From Loxodes magnus (lineage: Eukaryota; Ciliophora; Karyorelictea; Loxodida; Loxodidae), in contig CAMPDV010000208.1 of the NCBI GenBank assembly GCA_946699065.1, positions 186,001 to 250,000 of the forward strand: a DNA stretch of 64,000 bases, in the 5' to 3' direction. Shown piece after piece: positions 1-60,938 of the stretch. Each line of letters opens with the position of its first letter. The stretch's first letter is position 1. The notes under the pieces were generated by a model. The model was given only the letters and a program-made list of their open reading frames with translations. It had not been told where the DNA came from and did not search any database. A program made the translations under genes and the position numbers.

Positions 1-993
1 AATATTTTATTCACTTTTATCTACTACTAATGTCTAATTTATTATTTCAAAAGGAAACTATGAACAGTATTATCATTTGTTCTAACTTCCTATTTTTAAT
101 TTTTCTACTGTTCTTAAAAATTTACTTTAATCAAAAATTCCTCCTACTACATAAATATAATCTTAAGCTGATGCTAATCCAAATCCAAATCTTCCTTAGT
201 TAAGACCAGTTAGTATTTTACTATTTCCTTACAAGTCAAATTATCAAGTATCTTTTATTCCTTATCCATTTATTTATCCTCCAACTAAATATATCTTGTT
301 TCTATATTCAATACTTCTACTAAAACTAGGAACTTAAGTATTTAATTTAACTTTTTAAATTTATTCTGTTTCTATATTAAATAATCGAAGATCTTAAGTA
401 TCCCAATCAAAGAAATGAATATATTTTGTTTCTTTTATATTCTACTCAGCTTAAATTATTTATTTTTATTCTTGCTGTATATTTCTCTAATCAACTATTT
501 TAAGTTTTATCTGTTAATATATTTATTTGATTGTATTTTAGGAGTATTATTTAATGACAGAAATTAAGGCTTATAGATGGACATTATATTGCTTATTATT
601 CTTTAGTTCCTATTATGATAGCATTTTAATATGTTATGAGGAATTGCAATTTATAAACTAGTAGCTAACTATTTGTTACATCTAAGTAATTTTCTTTTGC
701 TTCTAATCTATTTACTTCTTCATTTAATTTAATTTCTATTAGCATTACTTTCTAATATTAATCTACTCCTATTATTATTGTAATATCTCTACCCATTCAT
801 CATTTATAGGTAAATCTTCAAATCTAAAGTGAAATACCTTATAACAAATGCAGCAGCTGATTTGATTCTATAAATAGTACTAAGTCTTTAAGCATAAGCT
901 ACAGAAAGTATGAGAACAAGGTAAGACAGTAGGAATAGCGTTAGTTAGGTTAAAAGGATAAGAGCAGTATTAGCATAGGTAGATGACTTACAT
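1..993 (-). CDS. RING-coiled-coil-kelch protein, copy K1 (C-terminal end cut by window edge)
   Basis: Minus-strand gene starting at 993, essentially identical to the complete copy at 5618-6982. With TAA/TAG as Gln and TGA as Trp it opens with a RING finger (C7-x2-C10-x15-C26-x-H28-x2-C31-x2-C34, C47-x2-C50), then a Gln/Lys-rich coiled coil, then kelch repeats. The last part lies left of the window. RING-kelch proteins are known as substrate-adaptor E3 ubiquitin ligases; this role is inferred from the domains only. Gene content and start are clear; whether it is expressed is not. Confidence 0.75.
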
Positions 994-5548: not shown

Positions 5549-8253
5549 TTAAAATATAATATAATATTTATTTTTAAAAATACTTTAAATTAATTATATT
5601 TTATTTAACTTCATTCATCACTTTATTCTTAAAGTCCTGTAATCCAAGTTCACTATATCCACTCTCAACAATAAAATATTAGAGTTATCAGGAATAAAAG
5701 AATAAGCAAATCTATCTCTTGTTTTAAATGCTGATAAATTATAAGAATTATGTTTAAATTCTATTTATTATCATTATTGATTGCTTCTTTTATATATCTT
5801 TCTTTAAAATTCTTTATTTCTTTGATTTTTTACTCCTCCAACTATAGTTAGAGGCTCAAGTAATACTAAAGGATAATAAGCAGCTTCAGGAAGATTAAAA
5901 TGACATTTATTTCATATATCATTCTATATATTATATTTTCATACGTCATTTAAAATTTATGCATTTTAGTTCATTCCTCCAAAAGAATAAATATTTTATT
6001 CACTTTTATCTACTACTAATGTCTAATTTATTATTTCAAAAGGAAACTATGAACAGTATTATCATTTGTTCTAACTTCCTATTTTTAATTTTTCTACTGT
6101 TCTTAAAAATTTACTTTAATCAAAAATTCCTCCTACTACATAAATATAATCTTAAGCTGATGCTAATCCAAATCCAAATCTTCCTTAGTTAAGACCAGTT
6201 AGTATTTTACTATTTCCTTACAAGTCAAATTATCAAGTATCTTTTATTCCTTATCCATTTATTTATCCTCCAACTAAATATATCTTGTTTCTATATTCAA
6301 TACTTCTACTAAAACTAGGAACTTAAGTATTTAATTTAACTTTTTAAATTTATTCTGTTTCTATATTAAATAATCGAAGATCTTAAGTATCCCAATCAAA
6401 GAAATGAATATATTTTGTTTCTTTTATATTCTACTCAGCTTAAATTATTTATTTTTATTCTTGCTGTATATTTCTCTAATCAACTATTTTAAGTTTTATC
6501 TGTTAATATATTTATTTGATTGTATTTTAGGAGTATTATTTAATGACAGAAATTAAGGCTTATAGATGGACATTATATTGCTTATTATTCTTTAGTTCCT
6601 ATTATGATAGCATTTTAATATGTTATGAGGAATTGCAATTTATAAACTAGTAGCTAACTATTTGTTACATCTAAGTAATTTTCTTTTGCTTCTAATCTAT
6701 TTACTTCTTCATTTAATTTAATTTCTATTAGCATTACTTTCTAATATTAATCTACTCCTATTATTATTGTAATATCTCTACCCATTCATCATTTATAGGT
6801 AAATCTTCAAATCTAAAGTGAAATACCTTATAACAAATGCAGCAGCTGATTTGATTCTATAAATAGTACTAAGTCTTTAAGCATAAGCTACAGAAAGTAT
6901 GAGAACAAGGTAAGACAGTAGGAATAGCGTTAGTTAGGTTAAAAGGATAAGAGCAGTATTAGCATAGGTAGATGACTTACATTTTATTATAAAGTTAATA
7001 AATGTAAAAGCTAAAAGTGTAAATATAACAGTTTAGATTAGATTATTACTATTACTATGATAAACTAGCTTATTAATATTACCTCTAATACTAATGTAAC
7101 TAATCTATTTATAATTTATTACTTACTTTAAATATTATAATACATTACCTTATATTCTCTTTTTATCTATTTTATATATAACTAATATTAAATAGAAATT
7201 ATAAAGATTCTTTAATAAAAAGATAAATTAAAAAATTATTACAAATAAATAATCTGATATTAAGACAAAATTAAAATCCTTAGATAACTTATTTAATCAC
7301 TAAAGATATATAAAAGTAAATGTATTATATCAATAATTTAAGAATTGTAATATATTAACTAATTAAATTAAAAATATAATATATTTAATTTGATAATTAA
7401 TATTAGAATATTTAAAAATAAAGTAAATAGATGTAAAATAAGTTTAAGTATATATAGATAGTATATTAAATGTTTATAGTATTTTTGGAATTAGTAATTT
7501 GGATATTTGATATGTTATTGATATGTTGATAATCTAGTGTATAATAGTGTTAGTTGAACTAGTTATTTTGTAATGTAAATAGTGATTTAATTTTGATAAT
7601 ATTATTTAATTTAAATAATAATTTGAGATATTTAATTAGCAAAATTTAGTTTTTATATATTAAAACTATTTACATATTTTTTTATTTAATATTCTCTTTT
7701 TGGTAAATATTGTTTATAACTATGAGAATAATCTATGAATGTTGATCTACAATAATAAAATAGGAAAGATTAATAATTTAAATAAATTAATTGTATATTT
7801 TAATCTAATTAAAGGAAATGTATCTTCATTGTAAAAACTTTTATCAAATTTAAACTGTTATTTAAATAGAATAAGATACAGAAAATAAATTAAAGATGCT
7901 AAATTAAAACTATGCTAATCAATAAAATCCTAAAAATCTAATATCAAACTAAATAAGTTAAGGATAACAATAAATAATCCAAAATTAAGATATTATTCAG
8001 TTCAAATCAAATTTACCACTCAATCCATTTTGTAAATTATTTATAAAATTTAATAAATTTATGTTAAAATGTAACATTTTTAATTTTTTACAATCATTTA
8101 ATTTAATGATACAAAAATAATTAATTTTAATATTTCTTTATTAAATCTTTCGCTTTATACAAATATAATTCAAAAATATTAATCAAATTATATATTATAA
8201 TTAAGCCAAATAATAATCCTTACTACTTATTAGTTTTATATTTTCAAACTATT
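5549..8253. repeat. Dispersed repeat unit K2 (RING-kelch gene plus upstream)
   Basis: Complete copy of the K unit. Its right part matches 1-2264; its left part also matches, less closely, 21560-23190 and 59510-61160. The 6983-8253 stretch upstream of the gene is A+T-rich with no gene. The border at 8253 is followed after 12 bp by the start of a type I zinc-knuckle gene. Confidence 0.9.
5618..6982 (-). CDS. RING-coiled-coil-kelch protein, complete copy K2
   Basis: 454 codons from ATG at 6982 to a TGA TGA pair (first at 5618-5620). The RING finger has the spacing C7-x2-C10-x15-C26-x-H28-x2-C31-x2-C34-x12-C47-x2-C50. A Gln-rich coiled coil follows, then at least three kelch repeats (YLVGG, YVVGG, YSFGG, TIVGG) in the last ~190 residues. 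Four internal TGA codons (complements at 6233, 6062, 5939 and 5912) fall where kelch tryptophans belong, for example NDV-TGA-KYN and NDI-TGA-NK; TGG is used for the W in NDEWVEI and FDWDTQ. Likely an E3 ubiquitin-ligase adaptor, from domain content only. No frameshift is seen, so it may be functional. Confidence 0.85.
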
Positions 8254-16971: not shown

Positions 16972-19900
16972 TTAATTATGTTCGAAAAACTCAAACATCG
17001 TTCTTTCCATCTTCCAACTTTTCCCCATTGTTTCTTGTGCTTTCTTATTATTCTTCTTTAGGCTCCAGTCAATTATCTGTGTATTTTTCAACAATTTCAA
17101 TTCTTTTTTCCTCGTAGATTCTTATGAAAAATTTTTATCTGAAGATCTGCTTCCATTTACTTATGAGAAGTGAACTGTTCGTTTATGTAAAGTTAATCGT
17201 AAGTTACTAGTTTTTTCAAGTTTTTTCCATGAAATTTATCAGATATATTTCTAACTATGTCCTAATAGTAGACACATTAGAAGATTTGTCTAAACGTGTC
17301 TTTTCCATCACATTTACAGAGTAATTTTTTACAGGACAACGACGTATATGTAAGTCATATTGAAAACTGTAAGAATTAGTTCTTAATTTAAAGATTGAGA
17401 TGATTTCTTTTTATATTCTTTGTCTAGTTTAGTTTAATTTATTTCAGGAAATTTCAAAAGTCCTCCAAGTTTCTCTCTAAATATCTGTGCAGTGGGCATG
17501 TCTCTATATCGTATAGTTGCTTCTTAATAGAATTTTTTTCTTATTTTTTCTTCAATAAGATTCTCAAGAGAAAGTTAATTAGAAATCATGGTTTGATCGT
17601 CATTGTTAATTCCGTAATATTAAAGCATTCTTTTAACTTACTAAAAGTACAAAGATTTTTAGTTTCAATTGCATTCAAAGAGTCTTCTTATATCAGATTC
17701 CGGATAAATCCTAGCTTCTTTCCGTATTTTAAAGTAGAAAAGGAAAAAGCAACTAGCCATAATATGCTCAAAAGGGAGTCAGTTAAAGTCTATGTGACAG
17801 GACTCATTAAAGACAGAGATAGGGACTGTAAAGCCTTCCTCGCAATTATACGCATACTTTTGCTTATCTTCTCTTTCATAGACTATGAGCCTCTCATTAT
17901 AGTTCAAGGAACCAATTCTCCACCGTATTCAGCCTTAGGTAACGTAAACTTGCGACAAAGTATTTTAAAGTGTCAGGGAGTAACATTCTTGTATCAGTTG
18001 AGAGTATAAATGCATTTCTTTACCGATTCTAAATATGTTTAAATTCTCTATTTACAGTGATTGATCAAAAAACCATTTTCTTGTATTATGACTCAAAGGT
18101 ATGTCACTTGATTTTCTATTTGATATGCTAAGCTTCCAGTTTCAAGTTTAATTCAATCTTTTAGCTCTTCTTTTTTTAACAAGTTGTATTGCTTCATATT
18201 TACTAGTGTTAATTTACAGAAAAATTAACTGAAAAACTCTGTTGCATTAATCTATAAATTATTACATCCTTTAAGCAGAACAAGAAAGGAGATAAGGTCA
18301 TCTGCCCGCGCTCTGAATACAAAGTTCATATTATGCAGATTGATACCTAGATGTGTATTTCTTTCCTATAGATGTCAGATTACTATATCATAATATAGAA
18401 GGGAGAGTACAGGACCATGTGAACTCCCTTGCATAACTCCATTGTTGTAATGAAGTCGTCGAGTTGTTTACCCATCAATTAGAAAAGAGGAATTCAGGTT
18501 ACTATAGAAAGACTCTAGTGCCAGTATCAATCCCAAAGTTAGTTTTATTCTCCTAAGATGTTGAAAAAGTGTTCTTCTCTCAATACTATCAAACATTTTC
18601 TCAACATCAAATAGAGTAGCAAGCATCTTTGCTTAGTCTTTCCCTTCACTCTAATAGAGGTAAATTATCTGCTACAATTATCATATTTAGTGGACTGTTT
18701 GTCTCTTCTTGAGAAATCCCATTTATACAGGATGTATGAGGTTTCATTCTTAAAGAATTTTGTAAGTCCTTTCTGTTAAAGCCTCGTCGTCGATCTTCAA
18801 TATAGTATTCATAAGGGAAATTGGTCTTCAGTTTTTCCAATCACTCTTACTACCTTTCTTGAAAATAGGAATGATAATGGAGGTATTCAGTTTTTATGGA
18901 ATTTATTAAAGTCGCATCATATTTTCGATAAAACAGTGAATTATTTATTGTAATTCTTCTCCAGCATACTTGATGAGGTCGCACTTTATTCCATCTTGTC
19001 CAGCTGCCTTGCCATTTGGAATATGTTGAATAATTTTTTGAATTTCTTAAAATTTGAAAAGTTCGAAACTTTATAAATGAGAAGATGGATAATTGATAAG
19101 TTAAGGATTTCTATAAATGAGATCTATTTACCGTTTACTAAAATTAAGGTGTTCCTATGCTACATTTTAATGTTTGTTTAACACAAAGGTTTCTCAGTTA
19201 TCAATAAAGGAATTACTAAGTTCTTCATTAAAATTCATTTAATTCCTTATTTTAGGGTTTATTATTTTTTCCGCCTGACAGAACATTGTTCGTTGATTTC
19301 CATTTAGTTTGAGAAATTTATCTTTAGCCTGAAGCTTTTTCCATTTTCAACAAGAACGCATATATATTTTTTTTTATTTTCTAGCTACAGAATAAGCTTC
19401 AGTTACTGTTTAGTTAATTCTTCCTTGTATAAAAATCAATTTCTTATATTCCTAATTTGCTCTTTTAGCAGCTATATACTTCAAAGTGATATCCAGAGGC
19501 AGTTTGTTGTAATTAGTATTTTGTTTAACTACTTCTATTGTGTTCATTGCACTATTCTAAAGTTAGTTCGTGGTGAAACTATATTATGAGTCTAAGTTGT
19601 CTGATTCTACAGTCAAAAACACGAAAAACTACCTTAAAATTAATTTTAGTAATTTTATCTGTCCATTGGATCAAGTAACTTAATAATCTTATAGAGTAAT
19701 GGTTGATATCTTGGAACATTTGTGGTTGCATTGTAAGCAAGAGTCACAGATATAGGAATATGATCAGTGATTAGTTTTTCATAGTGAGCCTAGAAATCGT
19801 TGACATAATCAATTCTCAAGTGTTGGGTTGCCAAAATGTAATCATTACAATAATATTATTGATTAGCTCTATGAATGAATGTATTTACTATAGGGTCATT

Positions 19901-21616: not shown

Positions 21617-22978
21617 TCATAACTTTAATCTTAAAGTCTTGTAACCCAAGTTCACTATATCCACTCTCAACAATAAAATATTAGAGTTATCAGGAATGAA
21701 AGAATAAGCAAATCTATCTCTTGTTTTAAATGCTGATAAATAAATAGAGTTATGTTTAAATTCTATTTATTATCATTATTAATTGCTTCTTTTATATATC
21801 TTTCTTAAGTATTCTTTTTAAGGATTTTTTACTCCTCCAACTATAATTGGAGGTTCAAGTAATACTAAAGGCAAATAAGCAGCTTCAGGAAGATTTAAAT
21901 TACATTTACTTCATATATCGCTCTATATATTATATTTTCATATGTAATTTAAAATTTATCTATTTTAGTTTGCTCCTCCAAAAGAATAAATATTTTATTC
22001 ATTTTTATCTGCTACTAACGCTTAACTTACTATTCCAAAAGGAAACTAAGAACAATATTATCATTTATTTTAACTTTCTACTTTTAATTTTTCTACTGTT
22101 CTTAAAGGTTTACTATAATCAAAAGTTCCTCCTACTGCATAAATATAATCTTAAGCTGCTGCTAATCCAAATCAATATCTTCCTTAGTTAAGACTAGATA
22201 GTTTTCTACTATTTCCTTAAAAGTCAAATTATCAAGTATCTTTTACTCCTTATCCATTTATTTATCCTCCAACTAAATATAATTTATTTCTATATTCAAT
22301 ACTTCTACTAATACTAGGTACTTAAGTATTTAATTAAATTTTTTTAATTTATTCTGTTTCTATATTAAATAATCGAAGAATTTAAGTACCCCATTAAAAG
22401 AAATGAATATATATACTTTCCTTTATATTCTACTCAGCTTAAATTATTTATTTCATGCTTGGTTTAATACTTCCTTAATCAATCATTTTAAGTTTTATCT
22501 GCTAATTTATTTATTTGATTGTATTTGAGGAATATTTTTAAGTGATAGAAATTAAGGATTATAGTTGGATATTATATTGCTAATTATTCTTTAGTTCCTA
22601 TTATGATAGTATTATATGTTATGAGGGTATGCAATTTATAAACTAGTAGCTAATTATTTGTTATATCTAAGTAATTTTCTTTTACTTCTAATCTATTTAC
22701 TTCTTTATTTAATTTAATTTCTATTAGCATTACTTTCTAATATTAATCTACTCCTATTATTATTGTAATATCTCTACCCATTCATCATTTATAGGTAAAT
22801 CTTCAAATTTAAAGTGAAATACCTTATAACAAATGCAGCAGCTGATTTGATTCTATAAATAGTACTAAGCCTTTAAGCATAAGCTACAGAAAGTATGAGA
22901 ACAAGGTAAGACAGTAGGAATAGCGTTAGTTAGGTTAAAAGGATAAGAGCAGTATTAGCATAGGTAGATGACTTACAT
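21617..22978 (-). CDS. RING-coiled-coil-kelch protein, copy K3
   Basis: 454 codons from ATG 22978 to TGA 21617-21619, the same length as K2. It has clear divergence from K2 in sequence but keeps the RING cysteines/histidine, the coiled coil and the kelch repeats. The TGA codons of the kelch region (NK-TGA-QYC, I-TGA-KYN, DI-TGA-SK) are kept although neighbouring codons changed, which supports a coding role for them. Upstream DNA to 23190 also matches K1/K2; beyond that it matches only the K4 copy. Probable E3 ligase adaptor by domains. Confidence 0.75.
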
Positions 22979-37958: not shown

Positions 37959-39503
37959 ATGAAGAATCAAGATATTTGTACATCTTGTAGTGAAAAATTT
38001 GATTCATAACTTGGCATTCCTAAAATTTTACCTTGCAGTCATTCAGTTTGCATTATCTGTTTGGCAACAGATTTCAGAAAAAATAAACAGAATAAATGTC
38101 CTATTTGCTAATTAGTTTCTTTATAAAACCCTAATGATTTAAAAAACAACGAACAACTTTTAATGACTAAAAACTAACAACTTAGTTATAATAAAAAATA
38201 AAATAAACCTTAGAAACGTTAAAATCTTAAAGAATAAACTTGAGATTATAACTATTAAAGATAAAAATAGTAGCATTCTATTATTTGTAAATAGACTTTA
38301 GTTCTATTAAATAGCCATATATTTAACAAAACTAATCAAGTAAAAAATGAAATATAATAAAGCATTAGAAGCATAAATTAAAAAGTCTTGAAACTTGAAT
38401 ATATTATAAAATAGTAAGGTCAAATTAATATATATGATTAAAGAGAAAAAAATGAAGTACTAACTCAAGAGGATTATCAGAAAGTATAAAAATAAGGAAA
38501 GAAGCGAATATAAAAATTAGAAGACTATAAAGAATAATTGCTTAAGTAATTGGGTTAAGCTTTTGAGTTTGTTTATAAGAATTGAAAAGAAAAAACATAA
38601 GAAGTAATAGAGAAAAGTTAACAGTAATAAGAAGAGAGCAAATAAAATATAAGAATTTTAAATTAAAGTTAAGAATAAAATTATTAAAATCAAGACTTTT
38701 AAAATTATCTTCATTAATTTAGTAGAGATACCTGCAACTTACATTTATTTGATATAATAAGGGAAGAATATAAATTAATTAAGATACAATAAAAAGTTCC
38801 TACGTATTAAAGAAGTATATATTATAAAAATAAACTATATCTAGTAGGTGGAAAAACAAATAATTAAGTAATAAAAACTACCTGATAAGTGGATTTCGAA
38901 GGAAATTTTAAGTAATTAAACGATATGAATGTAGCAAGATTTTGCTAAGGTTTAGCTGCAGCTTAAGGTATTATTTTTGCTGCAGGAGGGGCAGATAAAA
39001 ATACATTAAATACAATTGAATGTTTAAGATTAGAAAGTGAAAATAATTGAAAATGAAGTTCTTAAATACCCTATGGAATTCATAGTTAAACACTTGCAAC
39101 GGATATGTAAGAAGAAAATATATATTCTTTTGGAGAAAAAAATTCAGAAAATTAATTGTTAAAAGATATACTTAGATACAATATTTAAAAAGATGAGTGA
39201 ACATAGATTGAATTTTAGCTACCAAGTCCTATTAGTGTTTCAGCTATATGTTTAGATCCTTTAATAATATTAGGAGGTAATCATAAAAATAATAAGCAAT
39301 CAAAAATAATTTATAAAAAAAATGCTTTTAATTGGTAAGAAGCACTTCTTCCTATAGAAGGTAATTGTCTATTTTAAGTAAAATAAAAAGAAAATTATGT
39401 TTTTGCCATTATGTATTCATATAGTTAAGAAGATTATATATAAATTATGAAAGTTGAAACTAATAATTTGCATGCAGAAATAATTAGAAGAGAAAGTAGA
39501 TAA
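37959..39503 (+). CDS. RING-coiled-coil-kelch protein, divergent paralogue
   Basis: From ATG 37959 one frame of ~514 codons to a plausible TAA at 39501. The RING (CTSC, CSHSVCIIC, CPIC at residues 7-50) has identical spacing to K2. Coiled coil, then kelch repeats (YLVGG, FAAGG, YSFGE, IILGG). Overall it differs strongly from K1-K4, yet TGA recurs at the same kelch positions: TT-TGA-QVDFEGN (38883-38885) against DT-TGA-QFDLQGN, NN-TGA-K-TGA-SSQ (39048, 39054), DE-TGA-TQIEF (39198). TGG is also used (FNWQEA). No frameshift is seen. Probable E3 ligase adaptor by domains; stop uncertain. Confidence 0.8.
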
Positions 39504-40784
39504 AATAATAATAAACTTTTTTAATCTTAAAAAATATTAAAAAATTATCTGTTTGTTTAAAAAAATTATTTTCTTATATAATCAACTATGATTTATTACA
39601 TTAAAAAAAAGTATGAAGATTTATTAACTTGCCGAAATTTTATGCCTTAAAAAAGAAAAAAAATCAGAATATATTGAATCACTACCTTCTTTTTTAAGTT
39701 TTTTTTTATAGATAAGCAAGTAATAAGCATCGAAAGGTTAACTATACGAATAGTTAAAAGTATAGCTAAAATTAGTAATACTAAATCCGACAAAGTAAAT
39801 TTTTAGAAATTAGTCATTCATAAAAATTATAAAAAGCTATATTAATTTAGAAAAAACAATAGAGTAAATTATCAGTTGATAAAAGTGAGAATTCTAGAAT
39901 AAAAATTAATTTTTTAGCAAGGAAAAACAAGAAATATTAAATTTCGCCTCGATTAGGACGAAATTTGAATTATATTATTTTATGGAAAATTAAGGGAATG
40001 TTAAAAGCTTAAAAACTTAGAACAGTAGAAAACGAATAGATAGTAATAAGAAAAAAATTAAAGAATACGATAAAGACTATGATAAAAAAATTATTAAAAA
40101 TTGGAAGAGAAGAATTTTTAATTGTTTAAGAGCAATAAAGAAAAAAGAAAAAATATAAATTTTATCTTACAATGAAAATTAAACTAAAATTTAGCTTTAT
40201 ATGAAAATAAGATGAAAACTGAAAATGCTTTTATAAAGTAAAAAAACAGTAAACAAACTTTTCTACAATAAAAAAATAGAAAAGCTTTAAAGAAATTATT
40301 TATAGACAATAAAAGTTTAAAATTTTTTCTGAATGATTTATAAAGCAAGATAAAAAATAGTGTAAGCTAATTTGGTTTAGATAGTTAAATTTATATAAGA
40401 AAAGCAATTTTTTATTTTAAATATATACATTTCTTTAGAAATTTAAATTAATAAATTTTGTATTATAAAGTTTAATAAACCTAAATTAGTTTAATATCAA
40501 ATTTATATTTAATAAAAATATGTTGAAATATTAAAATGTTGCAAATTTATTTAAAAATTAAAAGTTTATATAAAGCTTGAAGAAGCTGTAAATAATTTGT
40601 GCATTTAAATTAAAAAAAATAATAGTTTTAATAGAATTAATTAATTAATATAAATGAATATCTATATATTTTCATATAATTATAAAACAGTTTTATATAA
40701 ATTACAAACATTATTCTTATTTCATAAATCGCTTGTATTTTTTTCTTCTTCCACTTCAACTTCGTTGTATTAAATAAATATTAA
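39504..40784 (+). other. A+T-rich region with a possible Gln/Lys-rich ORF
   Basis: Between about 39700 and 40350 a plus frame reads protein-like pieces (QGKTRNIKFRLDQDEI, LFYGKLRECQKLKNLEQ). No family recognised. The rest shows nothing. Confidence 0.2.
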
Positions 40785-54927: not shown

Positions 54928-57900
54928 TTAATTATGTTCGAAAAACTCAAGCATCGTTCTTTCCATCTTCCAACTTTTCCCCATTGTTTCTTGTGCTTTC
55001 TTATTATTCTTCTTTAGGCTCCAGTCAATTATCTGTGTATTTTTCTACAATTTCAATTCTTTTTTCGTAGATTTTTATGTAAAATTTTTATCTGAAGATC
55101 TGCTTCCATTTACTTATGAGAAGTGAACTGCTAGTTTATGTAGAGTTAATCGTAAGTTACTAGTTTTTCCAAGTTTTTTCCAGGAAATTTATTAGAGATA
55201 TTTCTAACTATGTCCTAATAGTAGACACATTAGAAGATATGTCTAAATGTGTCTTTTCCACCACATTTACAGAGGTAATTTTTTGCAGGACAACGACGTA
55301 TATGTAATTCATATTGAAAACTGTAAGAATTAGTTCGTAATTTAAAGATTGAGATGATTTTTTTTTATATTCTTTGTTTAATTTAGTATACTTTATTTCA
55401 GTAAATTTCAAAATTCCCCCAAGTTGCTCTCTAAATATCTGTGCAGTGGGTATGTCTCTATATCTTATAGTTGCTTCTTAATAGAATTTTTTTCTTATTT
55501 TTTCTTCAATAAGATTCTCAAAAGAAAGTTAATTAGAAATCATGGTTTGATCGTCATTGTTAAATCCATAATATTAAAACATCTTTTTAACTTACTAAAA
55601 GTACAAAGATTTTTAGTTTCAATTGCATTCAAAGAGTCTTCTTATATTAGGTTCCGGATAAGTCCTAGCTTCTTTCCGTATTTTAAAGTAGAAAAGGAAA
55701 AAGCAACTAGTTATAATATGCTCAAAAGGGAGTCAGTTAAAGTCTATGTAACAGAACTTATTAAAGACAGAGATAGGCGACTGTAAAGCCTTCCTCGCAA
55801 TTATACGCATACTTTTGTTTATCTTCTCTTTCATAGACTATGAGCCTCTCATTATAGTTCAAGGAACCAATTCTCCACCGTATTTAGCCTTAGGCAACGT
55901 AAACTTGCGACAAAGTATTTTAAAGTGTCAGGGAGTAACATTCTTGTATCAGTTGAGAGTATAATGCATTTATTTGCCGATTCTAAATATGTTTAAATTC
56001 TCTATTTACAGTTATTGATCAAAAGACCATTTTCTTGTATTACGACTCAGAGTATGTCACTTGATTTTTCTATTTGATATGCTAAGCTTCCAGTTTCAAG
56101 TTTAATTCAAGTTTTTAGCTCTTCTTTTTTTAGGAAATTTTATTGCTTCACATTTACTAGTGTTAATTTACAGAAAAAATTAACTGAAAAACTCTGTTGC
56201 ATTAATCTATAAATTATTACATCCTTTAAGCAGAACAAGAAAGGAGTATAAGGTCATCTGCCCACGCTCTGAATACAAAGTTCATATTATGCAGATTGAT
56301 ACATAGATGTGTATTTCTTTCCTATAGATGTCTGATTACTATATCATGATATAGGAGGGAGAGTATAGGACCATGTGAACTCCCTTGCATAACTCCATTG
56401 TTTTAATGAAGTCATCGAGTTGTTTACCCATCAATTAGAAAAGAGGAATTCAGGTTACTATAGAAAAACTCTTGTGCCAGTATCAATCCCAGAGTTAGTT
56501 TTATTCTCCTAAGATGTTGAAAAAATGTTCTTCTCACAATACTATCAAACATTTTCTCAACATCAATAAGAGTAGCAAGCATCCTTGTTTAGCCTTTCCC
56601 TTCACTCTAATAGAGGTAAATTATCTGCTACAATTATCATATTTATTGGGCTGTTTGTCTCTTCTTGAAAAATCCCATTTATACAGGATGTATGAGGTTT
56701 CATTCTTAAAGAATTTTGTAAGAGCTTTCTGTTAAAGCCTTGTCGTAGATCTTCAATATAGTATTCATAAGGGAAATTGGCCTTCAGTTTTTCCAATCAC
56801 TCTTACTAACTTTCTTGAAAATAGGAATGATAATGGAGGTATTCAGTTTTTATGGAATTTATTAGAGTCGCATCATATTATTGATAAAACAGTGAATTAT
56901 TTATTGTAACTCTTCTCCAACATACTTGATGAGTTTGCCCTTTATTCCATCTTGTCCAGCTGCCTTGCCATTTGGAATATGTTGAATAATTTTTTGAATT
57001 TCTTAAAATTTGAAAAGTTTGAAACTTTATAAGTGAGAAGATGGATAATTGATAAATTAAGGATTTCTATAAATGAGATCTATTTACCGTTTACTAAAAT
57101 TAAGTTGTTCCTATGCTACATTTTAATGTTTGTTTAACACAAAGGTTTCTCAGTTATCAATAAAGGAATTACTAAGTTCTTCATTAAAATTCATTTAATT
57201 CCTTATTTTAGAGTTTATTATCTTTTTCGCCTTACAGAACATCGTTCGTTGATTTCCATTTAGTTTGAGAAATTTATCTTTAGCCTGAAGCTTTTTCCAT
57301 TTTCAACAAGAACGCATATATATATTTTTTTTAATTTTCTGGTTACAGAATAAGCTTCAGTTACTGTTTAGTTAATTCTTCCTTGTATAAACATCAATTT
57401 CTTATACTCCTAATTTGCTCTTTTAGCAGCTATATACTTCAAAGTGATATCCAGAGGCAGTTTGTTGTAATTAGTATTTTGTTTAACTACTTCTACTGTG
57501 TTCATTGCACTATTCTAAAGTTAGTTCGTGATGAAACTATATTATGAGTCTAAGTTGTCTGAATCTACAGTCAAAATACACGAAAAACTACCTTAAAATT
57601 AATTTTAGTAATTTTATCTGTCCATTGGATCAAGTAACTTAATAATCTTATAGAGTAATGGTTGTTATCTTGGAACATTTGTGGTTGCATTGTAAGCAAA
57701 ATTCACAGATATAGGAATATGATCAGTGATTAGTTTGTCATAGTGAGCCTAGAAATTCTTGACATAATCAATTCTCAAGTGTTGGGTTGCCAAAATGTAA
57801 TCATTACAATAATATTATTGATTAGCTCTATGAATGAATGTATTTACTATAGGGTCATTGATAATCTACAAATCATTCTGTTGAATAAACTATTTTAATC

Positions 57901-59574: not shown

Positions 59575-60938
59575 TCACACTATTCTTATGGTCTTGTAAC
59601 CCAAGTTTACTATATCGACTCTCAATAATAAAATATTAGAGTTGTCAGGAATAAAAGAATAAGCAAATCTATCTCTTGTTTTAAATGCTGATAAATTAAT
59701 TGAATTATGTTTAAATTCTATTTATTATCATTATTGATTGTTTCTTTTATATATCTTTCTTAAGTATTCTTTTTTATATGGATTTCTAAATCCTCCAACT
59801 ATAATTAGAGGCTCAAGTAATATTAAAGGATAAAAAGCAGCTACAGGAAGATTTAAATTACATTTATTTCATATATCGCTCTATATATTATATTTTCAAA
59901 TGTCATTTAAAATTTATTCATTTTAGTTTATTCCTCCAAACGAATAAATATTTTATTCATTTTTATCTGCTACTAACGTTTAACTTACTATTCCAAAAGG
60001 AAACTAAGAACAATATTATCATTTACTTTAACTTCCTATCTTTAATTTTTCTACTGTTCTTAAAGGTTTACTATAATCAAAAGTTCCTCCTACTACATAT
60101 ATATAATCTTAAGCTGCTGCTATTCCAAATCCAAATTTTCCTTAGTTAAAACTACATAATTTTCTACTATTTCCTTAAAAGTCAAATTATCAAGTATCTT
60201 TTAATCCTTATTTATTTATTTATCCTCCAACAAATATAATTTATTTCTATATTCAATACTTCTACTAATACTAGGTACTTAAGTATTTAATTAAATTTTT
60301 TTAATTTATTCTGTTTCTATATTAAATAATCGAAGAATTTAAGTACCAAAATAAAATAAATGAATATATTTACTTTCCTTTATATTCTACTCAGTTACAG
60401 TTATTTATTTTATGCTTGACATAATACTTCTTTAATCATGCAGCTTAGATTTTATCTGTTAATATATTTATTTGATTGTATTTGAGGAATATTTTTAGGT
60501 GATAGAAACGAAGGCTTATAGATGGAGATTATATTGCTTATTATTCTTTAGTTCCTACTATTTTAGTAATGTAATAAGTTATGAAGGTATGCAATTTAAA
60601 AACTAGTAGCTAACTATTTGTTACATCTAAGTAATTTTCTTTTACTTCTAATCTATTTACTTCTTAATTTAATTTAATTTCTATTAGCATTACTTTCTAA
60701 TATTAATCTACTCCTATTACTATTGTAATATCTCTACCCATTCATCATTTATAGGTAAATCTTAAAATCTAAAGTGAAATACCTTATAACAAATGCAGCA
60801 GCTGATTTGATTCTATAAATAGTACTAAGTCTTTAAGCATAAGCTACAGAAAGTATGAGAACAAGGTAAGACAGTAGGAATAGCGTTAGTTAGGTTAAAA
60901 GGATAAGAGCAGTATTAGCATAGGTAGATGACTTACAT
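59575..60938 (-). pseudogene. RING-coiled-coil-kelch gene, copy K4
   Basis: From ATG 60938 to TGA TGA (59572-59577). Same domains as K2/K3 and the same TGA codons in NDI-TGA-KYN and DI-TGA-NK. The start-to-stop length (1364) is not a multiple of three, so at least one indel is present. Either a pseudogene or a sequence error. Confidence 0.65.

Follow-up and report, generated by a model that had tools for sequence, protein, structure and literature searches.

TGA as a tryptophan codon and a stop codon in Loxodes magnus: support from kelch, kinase, eRF1 and tRNA-Trp genes

The sequence evidence supports a genetic code in Loxodes magnus in which TGA is read as tryptophan alongside TAA and TAG as glutamine. 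This had been proposed in a sequence-only reading of a 64,000-nucleotide window (the whole stretch analysed, C208:186001-250000), and it is borne out by kelch profile scores, by 30 kinase domains from the whole genome, by in-frame TAA and TAG codons in the eRF1 genes, that for the Gln of the GGQ motif included, and by agreement with the published code. The conclusion has fared better than the evidence first listed for it, several items of which do not stand, and that reading was silent on TGA serving as a stop as well. The explanation that we regard as practically certain is NCBI table 27, in which UAA and UAG are Gln and UGA is Trp inside genes and stop at their ends, with UGA probably read by a tRNA-Trp(CCA) with a 4-bp anticodon stem and eRF1 probably prevailing near the 3' end of the mRNA.

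The code has already been published for Loxodes and its relatives, and the analysis is an independent recovery that adds no new code. The primary description of the ambiguous-UGA code of karyorelicts is said to be the work of Seah, Singh and Swart in 2022, and a codon that is both stop and sense was a true surprise on its description between 2016 and 2022. The present value lies in separating the good evidence of the window (Trp sites of the kelch repeats) from chance matches (two zinc-knuckle pairs), with tandem arrays of short-stem tRNA-Trp genes as a second extra. According to the available part of PMC11441545, NCBI table 27 is the code of karyorelicts, Loxodes among them, with UGA the only stop and able also to encode Trp; the published macronuclear assembly of L. 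magnus is given there as 706 Mbp. The genome searched here comprises 705,730,643 bases in 7843 contigs.

The RING-kelch genes of the window

Copy B of the RING-kelch family (5618..6982, reverse strand) is open under table 27 for 454 codons plus a stop and reads as a RING domain and kelch repeats. It holds 53 in-frame TAA or TAG codons and five sense TGA, at residues 250, 307, 348, 357 and 404. On the reverse strand these stand in DT-TGA-QFD (6233..6235) and NK-TGA-QYC (6062..6064), where copies A, C, E2 and F likewise have TGA; in LNDV-TGA-KYN (5939..5941), with TGA in C and E2 and Leu in F; in NDI-TGA-NK (5912..5914), with TGA likewise in C, E2 and F; and in NQQ-TGA-QQI (5771..5773), with TGA in C and E2 and TGG (Trp) in F. 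The three motifs named beforehand, LNDV-TGA-KYN, NDI-TGA-NK and DT-TGA-QFD, are all present.

When Trp and nine of the 19 alternative residues were substituted at the TGA codons, Trp was the top scorer among the ten in all five kelch profiles passing an E-value of 1e-9. With TGA as Trp the scores were 68.7, 66.5, 61.5, 58.5 and 52.0 bits, against 54.8, 54.5, 51.7, 48.1 and 44.1 bits for the highest-scoring alternative of the nine. Counting the in-frame TGA codons was dropped as a test: the coding frame has six, the two remaining forward frames have four and 16, and shuffled sequences average 9.5, so that no clear shortage of TGA marks the coding frame off from either. The signal is where the TGA codons fall, not how many there are.

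That five RING-kelch genes have TGA at kelch Trp positions holds for the motifs, which are real, but less well for the number of genes. Copy A (1..993, reverse strand), cut by the window edge, is a duplicate of copy B, identical to it across the 993 bases compared; copy E (59575..60938, reverse strand) lies in two reading frames with a change near 60231; and of copy D the RING part alone was recognised, by eye. The change of frame in E, between its RING and kelch parts, may reflect a pseudogene, an assembly error or a tiny intron. Copy C (21617..22978, reverse strand; its coordinates, like those of E, are derived from alignment offsets) has one further TGA, opposite a Gly of B, A and E2 and a Cys of F. 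Around copies A and B the window is duplicated between positions 1 to about 2000 and about 5990 to 7990, 5989 bases apart, and the first four steps of 500 bases each show an identity of 0.996-1.0.

The strongly diverged gene F (37959..39503, forward strand) has six in-frame TGA, and its expected end is without TGA. The statement that the same positions are TGA in this gene is correct for three of the five columns; one of the others is Leu and one is TGG-Trp, and of the three additional TGA of the gene one lies at an insertion, one at a Leu/Ser site and one at a Tyr site.

Retrotransposon and zinc-knuckle sites

Outside the RING-kelch family, the motif N-TGA-RPIS had been pointed out in the reverse transcriptase of a retrotransposon. 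It is present in the reverse-transcriptase domain (PF00078) at 18819..18833 and again in a second, very similar copy at 56775..56789, both on the reverse strand, and both copies contain a second TGA, in QE-TGA-NLI. The two copies count once because the stretches shown are nearly identical.

The zinc-knuckle genes, in which TGA had been aligned with TGG or Tyr, fare less well. Both TGG pairs are alignments at chance level: 56 of 500 shuffles score as high as MI-TGA-SS/EPWSS and 144 of 500 as high as Y-TGA-FC/SWFC. Homology is genuine in the pair RI-TGA-PT/RIYPT, whose score is reached by 0 of 500 shuffles, yet here TGA stands opposite Tyr, not Trp. Over the window TGA is found also opposite Leu, Gly, Tyr and Leu/Ser, which counts against a reading as Trp only.

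Kinase domains across the genome

A search of the genome with a kinase profile gave 5592 first-look candidates, 136 of which were scored; the best-scoring 30 of the 136 were analysed after extension by eight codons at the 3' end. They contain 31 TGA and 63 TGG in 7871 codons. A Trp column was defined as one whose non-TGA codons encode Trp more often than any other residue, and the alignment has three such columns, with 75 cells in all: 47 TGG, 21 TGA, four TTT, one TAA, one TAT and one ATT. Thus 21 of the 31 TGA lie in these 75 cells. Without the added codons the domains hold 21 TGA in 7631 codons, and these three columns account for 13. The Fisher probability for TGA in the Trp columns, 7e-37, exaggerates the evidence, since the domains are relatives of one another, with a mean pairwise identity of 0.43 and best pairs at 0.92-0.96. 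The remaining ten TGA, in 7796 cells outside the Trp columns, count against a pure Trp reading. Domains with TGA at Trp columns reach 254-267 bits with the family profile, and the contexts of these TGA include the kinase D-x-W-S and H-P-W motifs. Most of the 185 in-frame TAA and TAG codons of the kinases lie in Lys, Glu and Gln columns.

Termination and eRF1

TGA is a stop codon too: two eRF1 genes and kelch copies B, C and E2 end with it, unlike gene F. The ending is TGA TGA in copies B and E2, in B a terminator and backup (5615..5620, reverse strand), and TTA TGA in copy C. In copy B, the one gene looked at for the depletion of sense UGA in the last ~20 codons expected under table 27, the last sense TGA lies 51 codons before the stop. 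In gene F (39501-39677) TAA stands where the family has its terminal TGA, and the frame then runs for 57 further codons without TGA until one begins at 39675.

The genome has three matches to PF03463, two of which (L040 and L041) are eRF1. Both eRF1 genes have 436 codons, with four TGG and no internal TGA, and stop at a TGA that is followed by another three codons later. The lack of internal TGA says little, given just four Trp codons. L040 aligns with the solved eRF1 structure 4d5n over residues 6-432 of 436 and, as this alignment is near end-to-end, its stop lies at the proper end of the protein. In-frame TAA and TAG number 20 and 21 in the two genes, and in both, one of them supplies the Gln of the catalytic GGQ motif. 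At least eight of the 20 in L040, the GGQ Gln included, fall on Gln of the aligned chain, in an alignment of one gene read by eye. The two genes lie at C196:19713 and C196:54613, 35 kb apart.

Changes in eRF1 had been suggested as a further thing to look for. They are present, TASNIKS having become RAQNIKS and the first residue of YxCxxxF having changed from Tyr to Phe, but they are insufficient alone to explain the handling of UGA, since a Y125F mutant keeps its activity on UAA and UGA and is lowered on UAG, according to the available part of PMC4698671.

The third match, L039 (C2:1762690-1763037), is presumably Pelota-like. It has an in-frame TGA where the human protein has Asn.

The tRNA-Trp genes

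The sequence-only reading had suggested looking for a tRNA-Trp with a UCA anticodon. A pattern admitting either CCA or UCA gave 125 matches in the whole genome and none in a reversed control. The anticodon is CCA in all of the 100 matches listed and in all of the 115 copies read as sequence, and no UCA anticodon was found among these. The copies read form two tandem arrays, at C67:481500-491499 (L064; 48 copies, in units of 182-195 bases) and at C148:155000-175000 (L062-L063; 66 copies, in units mostly of 241 bases), with one more copy on C148 apart from the array and on the opposite strand.

There are two forms of the tRNA, one per contig, which differ by one base in the anticodon stem, and each array has its own spacer. 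Position 27 of the stem is A or U, neither pairing with C43. Alignment to Rfam (cmscan, one copy per form) finds the top anticodon-stem pair alone to be non-standard, A.C on C67 and U.C on C148. Only these two stem forms occur in the 115 copies read, and none of these has a 5-bp stem; the D arm is slightly altered in one C67 copy. Seven tRNA-Lys genes of the same genome, taken as a control, are fully paired at that position. The two forms are not independent breaks of the stem, because C43 is common to both. The Rfam alignments were used in place of folding, the predicted minimum-energy fold of the tRNA-Trp alone not being a cloverleaf.

A short-stem tRNA-Trp was reported for Loxodes by Swart et al., as cited in the available parts of PMC13092985 and PMC12005148, and the same parts rest the link from a short stem to UGA reading on reporter experiments with Blastocrithidia and Condylostoma tRNAs. 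By analogy, an anticodon stem without its top pair, of 4 bp rather than 5, would make the tRNA tolerant of the near-cognate UGA, and ordinary tRNA-Trp(CCA) probably reads UGA as Trp in Loxodes; the causal role of the stem is suggested by this literature. eRF1 would then win at UGA only near the 3' end of the mRNA, where the literature points to nearness of the poly(A) tail as the probable decider.

In its main text, the L. magnus paper (PMC11441545) uses no word that starts with tRNA. Tandem tRNA-Trp arrays found no mention in the literature looked at, which does not show them to be unpublished. It is a rather unlikely proposition that the whole tRNA-Trp supply of Loxodes has been given over to short-stem tRNAs, as two CCA forms in large arrays. 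If true, the high dosage and the two unpaired forms would suggest selection on the strength of UGA decoding against eRF1. That the tRNA-Trp genes appear to have been converted and amplified is the most novel part of the analysis, and a full tRNA count is needed to give it meaning.

Alternative readings

The window genes might be decaying multicopy pseudogenes and their TGA codons true nonsense mutations. Copy E shifts frame, gene F has no TGA at the family end, and dN/dS is 0.86 between copies B and C and 0.53 between B and F; the B-C value shows too little constraint to speak against decay of the window genes. With one exact duplicate, one frameshifted copy and a dN/dS of 0.86, the window genes by themselves are weak evidence. 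Random nonsense mutations, however, would not choose Trp columns, and TGA gathers at Trp positions not only here but also in kinase domains elsewhere that still score 254 bits or more. The kinases refute decay as a general account, for which we see very little chance, and it may hold for single copies such as E and F.

UGA might alternatively specify another amino acid, such as Cys, Arg or Tyr, or be read by a tRNA-Trp with a UCA anticodon. In Euplotes, as far as the available part of the source goes, UGA is Cys via a tRNA-Cys(UCA), and two homologous sites in the window, in gene F and in the zinc-knuckle pair, put TGA opposite Tyr. Against this, each of the nine other residues scored below Trp in all five kelch profiles, Tyr occupies just one of the 75 cells of the kinase Trp columns, and the anticodon was CCA throughout the listed and read tRNA-Trp genes, so that the probability of either variant is close to nil. 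Hardly more credible is a UGA that is purely sense, with termination by another signal. Gene F, ending near a TAA with no TGA in frame for a long way, would suit it. It is contradicted by the TGA ends of both eRF1 genes and of copies B, C and E2, by copy C, in which TTA replaces the first tandem TGA and the second TGA then follows, and by published poly(A) transcripts, in which UGA is the sole stop according to the available part of PMC11441545.

Comparison with other codes

No difference was found from the karyorelict code of NCBI table 27 (Loxodes; Parduczia), in which UAA and UAG are likewise Gln and UGA is Trp or stop by position. According to the parts of the sources available, all 64 codons can likewise be sense in the heterotrich Condylostoma magnum, with context-dependent termination, and it too has a tRNA-Trp(CCA) with a 4-bp stem and no UCA tRNA-Trp found; its eRF1 is, however, inferred to recognise all three stops, whereas the clear gene ends of Loxodes are all TGA. 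The nonstop code of Blastocrithidia, again from a source available in part, shares UGA as Trp and a 4-bp-stem tRNA-Trp(CCA) but differs in that UAR is Glu and UAA is also the stop.

Other tRNA searches

A tRNA-Gln pattern had no match in the genome, but the spacing used was probably wrong. The general tRNA model RF00005 gave 42,786 first-look candidates and 63 scored matches; every one of the seven that were read is a tRNA-Lys(TTT). As several of the 63 matches stand in evenly spaced runs, Trp is not alone in having tandem tRNA genes. Such runs occur on C103, C158 and C78, with matches 527 and about 1752 bases apart, and the match read out of the run on C103 is a tRNA-Lys(TTT).
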